From Bdellovibrionales bacterium CG10_big_fil_rev_8_21_14_0_10_45_34 (GTDB lineage: Bacteria; Bdellovibrionota; Bdellovibrionia; Bdellovibrionales; 1-14-0-10-45-34), in contig PEZS01000006.1 of NCBI GenBank assembly GCA_002778785.1, positions 780 through 56,640 on the forward strand: a stretch of DNA of 55,861 nt, given 5' to 3'. This document shows positions 11,766 through 19,483 of the stretch, one piece after another; the first letter of the stretch is position 1, and each line of letters begins with the position of its first letter. A program made the position numbers and the translations under genes. The notes under the pieces were generated by a model. It saw only the letters and a list, made by a program, of their open reading frames with translations. It did no database searches and was not told the DNA's origin.

Positions 11766-12980
11766 TCAAAAGTCTTCGGGTAAAACGACCGTTCCGTTGG
11801 TTTTGATTCTGTAAGGTCCGGTGACGAGACTGCTTACAATCTTTTCACGAAGGTCTGAAACTTTCATCTGCGGATACTTACTCAAATAAAGTGCGGCAAT
11901 CCCTGAGACAAACGGCGCGGCCATGCTTGTTCCATCCTGACGAGAGAAGCCTCCGGGGACTGTGCTAATGATTCTTTCGCCGGGTGCTAATACGTCTACC
12001 GGGTTTCCGAAGTTAGAAAACCACGTGCGCAGGTGAATCGTCCCCAGGGCTCCCACAGTGATTTGATTGCTCAAGTTGTATTTAGCGGGGTAAACATCGT
12101 AGTACTCTAAATTTAAACCTTCGTTTCCGGCGGCGGTGACAAACAGCACGTTCTTCTCAGCAAGCGCTTCAATAGTTCGCTTAAGCTCTGCTGAGCAGCC
12201 AGGCCCGCCCCAGCTCGCATTAATGATATTCGCACCCATCTTTACCGAATAGTCGATGGCTTCAATCGAAGACGCCGTTGATCCTGATACAGCGCTCATA
12301 AAGTCTGCAGGTAATATCGTCGCTTGAGGGGCAACACCCCGCACAAAGTTGTTGTCGTGATTTGCTGCAATGACGCCAGCGACGTGAGTGCCATGTTCGG
12401 CTTCATCAACGTTGGTAGGGTTTCGGTCGGCGAAATTGTATCCGTAGATGTCATCCACATAGCCGTTGCCATCGTCGTCGACCCCTTCTTTGCCGTTGAG
12501 CTCCGCAGTATTGGTAAAAATGCGACCCACCAAATTGGGGTGTGTTAGATCGACACCGGAGTCGACGACTGCGACCACAACACCTTGCCCATAAAATCCT
12601 TTTGACCACACATGTTCGACTTCTATGTTTTTAACCCCCCAAAAAGCATCATCCGGTGAATTTTGAGTAGATAAAATACTCGCTTCTGAAAAAGTTTTTG
12701 GTACATCAATGCGGTAGTTAGGTTCGATAAGCTCAATGTAATCTGAGTACTGGGCCACAAGTACAGAGTCGATTTCTTGTGAGGTCCAGGATTCAAGTTT
12801 TTGTAGATAACCGCTACTCCACCTGACAACATAGCTGCCCGGTATAACTTTCGCATCACAGCTAGCGGAGGGCGACTCGACTCGGGTGCTTTGAGCGGTT
12901 GTGTTTGAGGGATTTTGCTCTTTTTTTGCGCATCCAAATGTAACGAACAAAAGTGTAACGATGCCTAATAAAAGTCTCAT
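11766..12980 (-). CDS. Subtilisin-like (S8) protease, predicted lipoprotein
   Basis: A 404-residue exported protease. The signal peptide ends in FVTFGCAKK, giving a canonical lipobox at Cys17. Residues 46 to 95 resemble an I9-type propeptide inhibitor (GSYVVRWSSGYLQK). The catalytic triad is Asp140 (AVVDSGVDLTHP), His196 (HGTHVAGVIA) and Ser352 (DGTSMAAPFVSG), and the oxyanion Asn is in TAAGNEG. The acidic stretch VDDDGNGYVDDIYGYNFAD is typical of fervidolysin-like subtilases. Compared with the other S8 protease at the left edge, this one is compact and lacks the Pro/Thr tail. It lies alone between a DUF4143 ATPase and a small repeat region. Function at family level is firm. Confidence 0.94.
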   Translation of the reverse strand: MRLLLGIVTLLFVTFGCAKKEQNPSNTTAQSTRVESPSASCDAKVIPGSYVVRWSSGYLQKLESWTSQEIDSVLVAQYSDYIELIEPNYRIDVPKTFSEASILSTQNSPDDAFWGVKNIEVEHVWSKGFYGQGVVVAVVDSGVDLTHPNLVGRIFTNTAELNGKEGVDDDGNGYVDDIYGYNFADRNPTNVDEAEHGTHVAGVIAANHDNNFVRGVAPQATILPADFMSAVSGSTASSIEAIDYSVKMGANIINASWGGPGCSAELKRTIEALAEKNVLFVTAAGNEGLNLEYYDVYPAKYNLSNQITVGALGTIHLRTWFSNFGNPVDVLAPGERIISTVPGGFSRQDGTSMAAPFVSGIAALYLSKYPQMKVSDLREKIVSSLVTGPYRIKTNGTVVLPEDF

Positions 12981-14569: not shown

Positions 14570-14768
14570 ATTTTGCAGCCCCCTTACCCTAATCTCACAT
14601 AGAACATCACTTCCCAATAGAGCCTAACGCTTTAGAAAATGCGACGCAAACTAAAGGCCCACACCTTCGGTCAAAATCAAAGTAGACAGAAATGATCCCT
14701 TCAGAAGGGGAATGCAATTTGCACCTTCAATCGCGGCTATAAAAGAGTCACAAGTTTGGGAGCGCTGG

Positions 14769-17700
14769 ATGAGGCGGTTTTTGGTTTTTTGGCTAATTGT
14801 TAGCCATATTTTTACTTTAGACGTTGTTGCTCAGTCGGTCCGAGTTCGACCTGGCATTGAGACTTCCAAGCGGGGCGTCATTGATGTTTCAGGACAGACA
14901 CCGCCTAAAGCAGCTGATGGAACAAGCTATAGCGGCTCGACTGCTCCATCGCGCACGCCAGGGCGCAGGGGTGGCGATGGGGGCCACGGAGCCCAAGCGG
15001 ATAACCCAGGTCAAATAGAGGTCTCCCTGCGTGACCTAAGGTCGGCGGCAGAGATTGAACAGGCCAACGAAAGAGGCGCGGTGGCGGGTGGTGACGCCGT
15101 AGCTAATGCAGATGTGCAACGCTTTTACTCTGAAACCTCAATAGATGGCGAAGTAGAAGTTCAGGTAACGGTAAAGAAATCTGCAAAAGGATTTCTAAAC
15201 TCTACATTAGATTTTATTCGGGGCGCATGGAGTGGAGGCACTCAAAAAATAAAAGTAAGCTTTGATCAAACTCTGCGTTTGATCGCAAGAGGCGGTCAGG
15301 GTGGAGACGCTGGCGACGGTGGGCATGGACAACAGGGAGGCAGAGGCAGGAATGGTGCAGATGCAACAAGATACAGCGAGGGTGAAGACGGAGGTCCGGG
15401 AAGTGAAGGTGGGGCTGGTGGCCATGGTGGCAAAGCCACAGATGCTACTGATGGAGGGAAGGTTTCTGTAGAGGTATCAGCCAATCAAACATATTTACTG
15501 ATAATGATTGATAAGCAGTCGTCTGATGTTGCCGGCGCAAGAGGGGGCTACGGAGGCGCTGCTGGGCGCGGCGGCGAGGGAGGAGACGGCGGAAGTGGGG
15601 GAAGTAGCTACTCTTGGAGTGAGACTGAAACCTATACTGACAGTGAAGGAAAAACACAAACCAGAACTATTATAAGAAGCAAATCAGGGGGCAGCGACGG
15701 GCCAAGAGGAAGTGCTGGTCGAAATGGAATAGATGGGGGAGACGGTCGAAGCAGCAGCGCAGGCACTTACAAGTTTTCTGTGAAAGATGAATTCGGGCGC
15801 ATAACTTCCTACGATGAAAGGTTTAAAATACATATTTCTCACTATGAAATGGTCACCCCTGATCATGACAATGTGTTTGAACCAGGTGAAGAAATTGAAC
15901 TTAAGAATCTTACTATAACTAATGCTAGCACGATGCCATTTCCGAAAGGCACGAGGCTGCTAATTGCCGCTGTCCATGATGGTTTAATTCTTAACCTTTC
16001 CAAGCCCCTAGTTCTCACGCAGGGTCTAGAAGGAAACAGCACGCACACTTTTTCTGAAAACTTACGCGTTTATCCAAGAGAGATTCGCGAGGATGAAATC
16101 AAGCTCAATGAAACCCATGTTCGAAGACACAGACTACAGCTGTCGGCGCAAGTAACAGTTATTGGACGTGAACTCCCCGAGGCTGACAACACAATAGAGG
16201 CTAACGAAACTATAAGTCTGAGGTTCCCAGTTGAAATAGTTTGGATAAAGTCGTTAGAGGCAGCTATACCAGGCGAGTATCAAAGGGTTTTAATAAGAAT
16301 AAAAAATACATCCTCAAAAGAACTCGGCTCGGCCTCGGAAGTCAAAAGAGCCGTAATGGCTCAGCTAAATGCGAATGGCCAGGGAGATCTAACTGAGGAG
16401 GATCTTGACTTACAGTTTACTAATTTGCAGGTCACAGAATTCAACGAGCAGACCATTGGCACCTCCGCTACTGATCTCATCCGCAATGCTGCAATATTGG
16501 GCCGGAAAAACTCATTTATTTCTGATCTGTTAGCCCTAAAGCCCGGCGAAGAGAAAACGATGGTAGCTGAGGTCGGAGTGAGAAGAGGCGTCAAGGCAGG
16601 TCAAATGTTTGAGATAACTACTCGGCTGAGTCAACAGGCCCATCTAGACAACAAAGAGCCGAACGAAAGAGGCGCGACAGAAGAGAACAAATTGCTTGAA
16701 CAAAATTCTCAAGACAACTCAAGGCCCATGCAAACTGTTGCTTTGGGCAATTTTATCATCACAACCGGCGAAAGATATCAACCGGATGAAAATGCTGACG
16801 TGCTTTTTATATCGCACACTAACATCACAACAGCTCACTACAAGGAGTGGGAAAGGCTACTGCGAAGACTAGATCTAAAGATGAACATTTGGAATATAGG
16901 AATTGAGGGCTTTTTAAACTTGCTCGAATTTGGTGAAAAAACTCACGGACTTGATAGGCTGTTTGAATCATTCTATGGTAAAACAATTGTCATTCCAACC
17001 CACCTATTTAAATTAAACGGCGAAATTAAGAGTGCTCTCGATTATCTCGATTTAATTCAAATGCGAATGGCCACACTTGAAGGGAAAGTAAATTTTCTAT
17101 TTGTGGGGCCTAGTGGTGAAACGCTAAGCAGGCTAAATCAATCTTTGACTCCGCTTGATGAGCGGCCGGCGGATCCGCGCTATGCAGGTTCAGTGATAGA
17201 TGGACAATCGGGCTCATCTAGCGTCGACTACCGGATGGCGTGGAGGCGCGCAGAGCTTGGCAGCTTTGTTCTCGCAATCAATTCCCAGCGTGACTCAAGT
17301 GCAGAGAGTGGCCTCAGTGCTGCAGATAGCGCCGGCAGTAGAGCGCTCGTTAGACGAGCCGAAAAACTTTCGAAACAGCTGAGGGAGTGGCGCCACAAAA
17401 ACGGACTACCTGTCGCACAAAGTTTAGATTACAATTTCCCTTCCTCGAGCGTCGATGAGTTCGGGCTGTCGAAGTGGGTTTGGTTTCATGGCAAATCAAA
17501 AGGCGAATTGCTCGAGACAGCAAAAGAATTTGGCCAATATGTAGCAGACGGCGTACGTAGCCGTCAGCCCCTTGCCACGTTTTTTGCAACTCACGAGTTC
17601 TCACCTAGAATTGTGAGAAATCTCTTATTTGGCGCTCTTAAGAAGGTCGATTTCGGTGCAATTTTAATTAGAAAAGCTCTCTCCCCTTATGACGGTCAAT

Positions 17701-18677
17701 ATACATTTTTAAAAAGAGATACTTTGTCGGGTTCTCAAAGCGTTGATGATTTGCAAAAACGCGGGGAGATGTTGGCCGCAGATGCCGCTCAGGTAGAGAC
17801 GCGAACGACGCGATTGGCACTTCTTATGTCCCTTCCGACGGAGACCCTTGAAAGAATGATGAAGTGGTATCAAATAGGTGCTACAGGAATTGAAGAGTCT
17901 AGCAATGAAGCAGATGCCTACGGGCTAGAGGGTTTATTAGCGGGCAATCCTACCTGGACTGAGAAAGAGAAACTAGAGATTTTCGAAGAGCTTCTTCTTG
18001 CGCTTACAGATAAAGTACTCACTGAACAAATTAAACTTGGAGCGAGGGCACAATTCTTTAGATCAAGAGCAGAATGGGAGGCTTTTGTCCCGGCGCTCAT
18101 GAAATTCACTTCCATGCGAATGCCATTGGCATTCGCAGATAAAGAAATGCGAAGCCGTACACTAGACCTTGTTGCTTCACTTATGGCTGTGTTTCATTCA
18201 CATCCAAGCTGGTGGGATCGGCTGTCTGGAGCCAACATCCACTGGATAGAGAGAAGCTGCCGACGAATGTTGGAGCAGTTTGTGATAGCGAATATTGTCA
18301 ACTTCGATGGTCAAGAGAAAAGAGTTGTTTTAAGAGATCTTGCAGATAGATTTAATCAACACAAAAAAGCGATCTGGAAAGAAGGCAAGAAGAAAAGCCG
18401 ATACAATCAAAGTGCTAGAGCCAATCGCATCAATGCAGCAACAAACAGAGTGGATCTAGGGATTATAGGCAAGCTCAATTCGTCAGAAGGCGAAATTGTT
18501 AACTCGCGCAGAATACAGCAAGGCGCTTCAGCCGAGTTGCACCCTGAATCTTTCGTATCCGAAGCACAAAGGCGTCAGAGTCAAATTGTTGAATCTAACC
18601 ATAGAGCAAGACGTCGCAATGAAGGCATTCGAAAGGCTTTCGTGTGTGAGAGAATTTTTGACCTGTCGAGACAGTAG
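14769..18677 (+). CDS. Giant exported glycine-rich protein of unknown function
   Basis: About 1302 residues. The N-terminus [22 protein letters not shown] is a clear signal peptide. The ATG at 14769 has GGGAG at 6-nt spacing; an in-frame ATG at 14712 would bury the signal behind 19 residues. Residues about 60 to 330 hold four glycine-rich blocks (for example [19 protein letters not shown] and [20 protein letters not shown]) alternating with beta-type segments such as [20 protein letters not shown] beta-rich middle ([17 protein letters not shown], resembling an immunoglobulin-like repeat), a possible Rossmann-like segment ([17 protein letters not shown]) and a helical Lys/Arg-rich C-terminus follow. 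There is no transmembrane anchor or sorting signal at the end. The family is not recognised with confidence; a structural or surface-matrix role is possible but unproven. Confidence 0.85.
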
Positions 18678-18970: not shown

Positions 18971-19483
18971 ATGAAAATTTTAGTTCAAGAAATCAAAACA
19001 GAATGGACAAAAGCCTCACGTAGTGGAAGGGCTGCTCAATTAAGAAGCCAAACTCCGCTGAAGCTTGAGATGCCTCAAACGATTTTTGCCTCGGCGGACT
19101 ATATAATAGTTCATAAGCTTGAATTTAAAGAGGAGAACAACTTTGAGTGTCAGGCTGTCGAAGGCCACCTATCAGATCCTTTCTCAAATGGTAGTGAACT
19201 CTTTGGCGCAGTTGAGCTTCGGCCCGGCGACAATGGAAACATACAATTAAAGTTTCGATGGTCTAATGAAGTCGGCGCTCCTGAGCGAAAATCCAGAAAT
19301 ATCGGAAACATTTCAGATGGAGAATGGTTTCAAGTTATCTATAATGGTCGCTTTGGTGGAAGACATGACTGGCTGTACAGACAAATGGTTGTGAATGTTG
19401 GCCTGTCTAGCCAAATTGAGCCAACATTTTTTCTGTTAAAAGATCCAAAAGTCACCTGCGACGAACGAGCACTCCTTCGCTAA
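18971..19483 (+). CDS. Hypothetical protein
   Basis: A 170-residue protein with no signal peptide or membrane segment. The second half is beta-rich (AVELRPGDNGNIQLKFRWSNE, then DGEWFQVIYNGRFGG, then WLYRQMVVNVGL), suggesting a small sandwich domain. The ATG has no strong ribosome binding site. It follows the glycine-rich giant on the same strand after a 293-bp gap that holds a possible RNA structure. I recognise no family. Confidence 0.65.
   Translation: MKILVQEIKTEWTKASRSGRAAQLRSQTPLKLEMPQTIFASADYIIVHKLEFKEENNFECQAVEGHLSDPFSNGSELFGAVELRPGDNGNIQLKFRWSNEVGAPERKSRNIGNISDGEWFQVIYNGRFGGRHDWLYRQMVVNVGLSSQIEPTFFLLKDPKVTCDERALLR

Follow-up and report, generated by a model that had tools for sequence, protein, structure and literature searches.

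Few known structures contain polyglycine-II (PGII) domains, which are easily taken for low complexity. Described PGII sandwiches include gp38 of the phages S16 and PP01, PE_PGRS proteins and the snow-flea antifreeze protein (PMC12892980, PMC10216338, PMC8409303). In gp38 of T-even phages the exposed sandwich serves as a rigid platform whose loops bind (PMC12892980), and models of PE_PGRS33 likewise show a PGII sandwich platform with binding loops (PMC10216338). The Obg N-terminal domain also alternates glycine blocks with strands and carries the turn GG-dGG-x-I-x-V...LL. The Pfam entry for the family DUF7932 (PF25560) is confined to a beta domain of 130 residues and assigns no function to it.

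In the window, a stretch of 55,861 nucleotides from a Bdellovibrionales genome, an open frame spanning 14712-18677 yields, when started at 14769, a 1302-aa protein with a clear Sec signal peptide, and hydrophobic export signals also open its relatives (Table 1). Four glycine-rich blocks alternating with beta segments had been noted in a preliminary description of this DNA, and the measured block positions lie close to those given there; the 14-residue beta-type segment quoted as an example corresponds to residues 229-242 (15453-15494). G-x-x-G pairs were counted per block against 2000 shuffles of each block, which revealed 15 pairs in block 2 (shuffle mean 7.3) and 11 in block 3 (mean 3.8), neither reached by any shuffle, 6 in block 4 (mean 2.5; reached by 14 of 2000) and, weakly, 4 in block 1 (mean 2.1; reached by 186 of 2000). 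Several blocks thus carry the Gly-x-x-Gly or GGX triplet phase of PGII-bundle proteins, with block 1 being the weak case. With the PGII sandwiches the protein shares this triplet grammar, an exported or exposed setting and, as proposed below, a rigid platform; unlike them, it belongs to another family with no sequence match found to theirs, and it adds beta sandwiches and a flavodoxin-like domain.

Table 1. Features of the exported DUF7932 protein (window positions) and associated loci of relatives (positions within each locus).
Feature	Position	Strand	Basis
Whole gene, exported DUF7932 protein, 1302 aa	14769..18677	+	ORF, signal peptide, Pfam match
Sec signal peptide, residues 1-21, VVA/QS, without lipobox	14769..14831	+	sequence
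Glycine block 1, residues 51-74, after family motif IDVSG	14919..14990	+	Gly density; pLDDT 76-89
Glycine block 2, residues 164-237	15258..15479	+	Gly density, AlphaFold2 model, alignment of relatives
Beta/helix segment (13 residues) between blocks 2 and 3	15459..15497	+	DSSP of model; conserved L
Glycine block 3, residues 246-291, ends in family motif GGSSYSW	15504..15641	+	Gly density, model, alignment
Beta hairpin between blocks 3 and 4, length varies among relatives	15606..15683	+	model, comparison of relatives
Glycine block 4, residues 301-334	15669..15770	+	Gly density, model, alignment
DUF7932 domain (PF25560), residues 354-473, beta-rich	15828..16187	+	Pfam, model
Second beta domain, CARDB/Ig-like, motif PVEI...PGE...IKNIS	16218..16763	+	alignment, model, Foldseek
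Flavodoxin-like (Rossmann-like) domain, residues 678-793	16800..17147	+	alignment, model, PDB fold search, profile match
C-terminal part, mostly helical, poorly conserved, low-confidence model	17148..18674	+	comparison, model
C-terminal cysteine motif (10 residues), Cys 1293	18645..18674	+	
Members with near-C-terminal cysteine	window, L055, L056, L052, L053, L054, L061, L071, L095		
Coiled-coil architecture loci	L067:1740-5948, L072:8170-12015, L073:6439-10602, L074:6904-11052, L077:8262-11180, L078:1-3305		
CxxC-pair downstream genes	L049:11203-12084, L057:6748-7707, L058:5929-6990 (one gene apart), L062:1-321		
Conserved exported neighbour of short members	L064:10665-11708, L065:6274-8460, L066:10648-11709		

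Among the relatives, both the length of the glycine blocks and the phase of their glycines are kept. Block 2 with its strand (residues 172-243) comprises exactly 72 residues in 13 of the 15 complete long members of the window protein's type, the other two aligning with 71 and 39 residues; block 3 measures 23-24 residues in these members, and glycines occupy fixed columns of the alignment (GG.GG.gG.GG.G..G..G), although the part from DUF7932 to the flavodoxin-like domain shows only 17-27% identity to the window protein. In other member types the block 2 stretch takes 69, 75-76, 81-82 or 101 residues. A structure prediction of residues 50-340 had been suggested in the preliminary description, and AlphaFold2 was run on residues 22-672 with an input of only eight sequences, resulting in a mean pLDDT of 70.6 and a pTM of 0.53. 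Per ten residues, pLDDT reached 70-94 for residues 172-361 and 76-89 for residues 42-81, so that the blocks are confidently predicted as folded, with no disordered or collagen-type result; they contain almost no helix or strand, and strands run between them. As popular secondary-structure programs miss the PPII/PGII conformation (PMC8409303), a PGII bundle would be expected to yield an output of this kind. Constant length and phase, together with a confident prediction free of helix and strand, are consistent with a folded module of polyglycine-II type, which we consider the best reading. Of the PGII bundle originally proposed, the folded glycine module was thereby supported, while the PGII geometry itself is what we infer for a fold that the model predicts.

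This reading had to be weighed against three other explanations of the glycine blocks. Their high glycine, serine and aspartate content would suit a disordered low-complexity linker or spacer, but such linkers seldom keep length and phase, as a packed fold would and as the blocks do, and with pLDDT values mostly of 70-94 a disordered spacer appears highly improbable. A collagen-like triple helix, in which the blocks would be trimerising Gly-X-Y repeats, can draw on Pfam Collagen matches in 8 of 26 members (best E 5e-6) and on a collagen-like fibril among the PDB profile matches, the latter by composition; the window protein, however, has no Collagen match, its blocks hold 0-2 prolines each in a GG-x-GG pattern rather than long uninterrupted Gly-X-Y, they are short and split by strands, and a single chain is confidently predicted to fold, which makes a triple helix very unlikely. 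The least plausible candidate, to which we attach next to no weight, is a type I secreted protein whose blocks are calcium-binding repeats of RTX type: the protein is indeed exported and rich in Gly/Asp repeats, but the nonapeptide GGxGxDxUx is absent from it and occurs as single stray matches in four relatives, and the window protein bears an N-terminal Sec signal peptide. A constant-length glycine module in an exported family, read as PGII, opens a new context in which this fold can be tested, and it provides a way into a Pfam family that has no name.

A likeness to the Obg fold had also been put forward. Profile-profile comparison (hhalign) against nine Obg N-domains from related genomes, with 40 triplet-shuffled controls, gave a probability of 10.8% and a score of 26.8, and one of the 40 controls scored higher (28.2). 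The only local match was the common turn GG-dGG-x-I-x-V...LL, and neither PF01018 (GTP1_OBG) nor any GTPase family matched the window protein or the scanned members. Homology of the glycine domain to Obg is consequently not supported, hhalign being at the level of the shuffled controls; what stands is the shared grammar, in a protein that, unlike Obg, is exported and lacks a GTPase domain.

The preliminary description knew of no family with the full architecture, which has to be corrected. Residues 354-473 match DUF7932 (E 5.1e-14, 53.2 bits against a curated cut-off of 27), the one Pfam match of the window protein and one found in all 26 members scanned. Besides it, sequence searches of Pfam, NCBIfam, PADLOC, PHROGs and PDB gave composition matches at most. 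DUF7932 is itself uncharacterised, and its match is limited to this segment. We collected 28 relatives in Bdellovibrionota (27 members including that of the window, plus two added). They comprise long members of ~820-1320 aa, short ones of ~640-700 aa, which combine glycine head and beta domains with another end and lack most of the flavodoxin-like domain, and a third type, ~900 aa in size, whose glycine block is longer. The distribution is patchy: the window protein has matches in 12 of 60 genomes of its nearest kin, and DUF7932 occurs, at the level of the phylum, in 30 of 291 genomes and, at that of the order, in 21 of 141 (the window's genome counted), but in 0 of 14 control genomes. Most named records are MAGs of Bdellovibrionales; one each bears the name 'Bdellovibrionia' and 'Proteobacteria'. 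The family is real, conserved, uncharacterised and not unique to the source genome, and the glycine head, the second sandwich and the flavodoxin-like part are newly described beyond the Pfam entry.

The beta-sandwich and the possible Rossmann-like domain of the preliminary description both found support. Foldseek with the N-terminal model retrieved tandem sandwiches of integrin alpha, transglutaminase, macroglobulin and staphylococcal adhesins (E ~1e-6 to 1e-7); as TM-scores for the integrin and adhesin matches were low (~0.1-0.25), these say tandem beta sandwiches and nothing further. For the second beta domain, Pfam CARDB did not match in the window protein and gave a weak sub-threshold match in one coiled-coil relative. 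The C-terminal model was poor (mean pLDDT 51.6), with a beta-alpha-beta unit at residues ~678-793 (pLDDT ~60-80) that resembles flavodoxins and WrbA at insignificant E-values (best PDB match E 0.04).

Two further findings extend the architecture. Foldseek against viral models placed one protein far ahead of the rest, A0A3G4ZNF8 (BFVD), a DUF7932 protein of Terrestrivirus sp. (Klosneuvirinae, Mimiviridae), whose predicted fold aligns with the N-terminal model along its full 651 residues (22-672; E 4e-35, TMq 0.56, 653 columns, 20% identity, both folds being predicted). It differs in coming from a giant virus rather than a bacterium and in its 1137 aa, and the likeness rests on the part matching these residues. 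This relative surfaced through the fold search only; three scans of viral contigs returned none, nor were relatives found in phage or plasmid collections. In addition, six further large proteins from the phylum begin with long coiled coils and GxxxG-type and Tyr/Ala-rich repeats, and their C-terminal parts match the window family in a profile comparison (294 columns, probability 99.35, E 6e-21) that runs from DUF7932 through the sandwich into the beginning of the flavodoxin-like domain. The profile match points to one C-terminal module joined to either a glycine head or a coiled-coil stalk, as would be expected if the N-terminal rigid head or spacer were exchangeable. What is new is a constant glycine module within an exported DUF7932 architecture, its coiled-coil exchange, a near-terminal cysteine and a giant-virus counterpart, in a family that spans relatives of predatory bacteria and apparently a giant virus. 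A subtilase-like gene lies in the neighbourhood of three coiled-coil loci (L067, L072, L073). A subtilase with a lipoprotein-like signal is also encoded in the window (11766-12980, opposite strand, two genes from the DUF7932 gene), and any connection between these subtilases is putative.

By analogy with gp38 and PE_PGRS33, we propose as a lead, with an even chance of being right, that the protein is a stiff element for display or adhesion, placed in the cell envelope or in the secreted space. The N-terminal ~300 residues would form one rigid domain of short strands alternating with PGII-packed glycine blocks, presenting loops and the hairpin between blocks 3 and 4; this head would sit on two Ig/CARDB-like sandwiches (DUF7932 and the next domain) acting as a stalk, followed by the flavodoxin-like domain and a helical tail through which the protein may form a disulphide link. 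The window protein has no recognisable surface anchor. Against a display role speaks that, unlike the loops of phage gp38, the hairpin in most close pairs did not evolve faster than the sequence around it, the fastest-evolving part being the C-terminal tail, and that the flavodoxin-like domain might have an enzymatic or ligand-binding function instead. In such a periplasmic or secreted enzyme or ligand-binding protein, the flavodoxin-like domain would do the work and the glycine and beta domains would be scaffold. Its motif LLVTN..T...AW..LG...WD.SYYG.LDL...KGKT is conserved in long members and the segment recurs in coiled-coil relatives, but no Pfam or NCBIfam enzyme family matched the window protein or scanned members, PDB fold matches were no better than E 0.04, and short members (~650 aa) keep the glycine head without most of this domain, leaving an enzyme or ligand binder rather unlikely. 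Returning to the display element, its extension to a hitherto unrecognised class of rigid scaffolds, at the surface or secreted, with a PGII head on a DUF7932-CARDB-flavodoxin module common to Bdellovibrionota and giant viruses, where a coiled-coil stalk can replace the head and a lone C-terminal cysteine ties the tail covalently, is tentative and, taken as a whole, doubtful.

The cysteine lies 6-13 residues from the end in 9 of 20 long members, three of which have no other cysteine; the nine are exported and otherwise nearly free of cysteine. Seven of these nine tails read C-x-x-[ILV]-hydrophobic near the end, a pattern present in 4 of 327 other genes of the relatives' loci. A general C-terminal cysteine tag on exported proteins was rejected, with no enrichment in 80 other exported genes. 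A protein that has just one cysteine can form disulphides solely between molecules, and our guess is therefore that it links the protein to itself or to a partner.

The DUF7932 gene stands alone, with a divergent SCFA-transporter-like gene upstream, and comparison of the relatives' loci revealed no generally conserved neighbour, so that gene context gives no function. Downstream, a 170-aa ORF without family match (18971-19483) also carries a near-terminal cysteine (CDERALLR). Three short members share a conserved exported neighbour of ~350 aa without family. Members without a terminal cysteine include four with a downstream protein bearing cysteine pairs; this exported protein, encoded just downstream of the glycine protein, combines several CxxC pairs with a C-terminal hydrophobic segment and is a possible partner.
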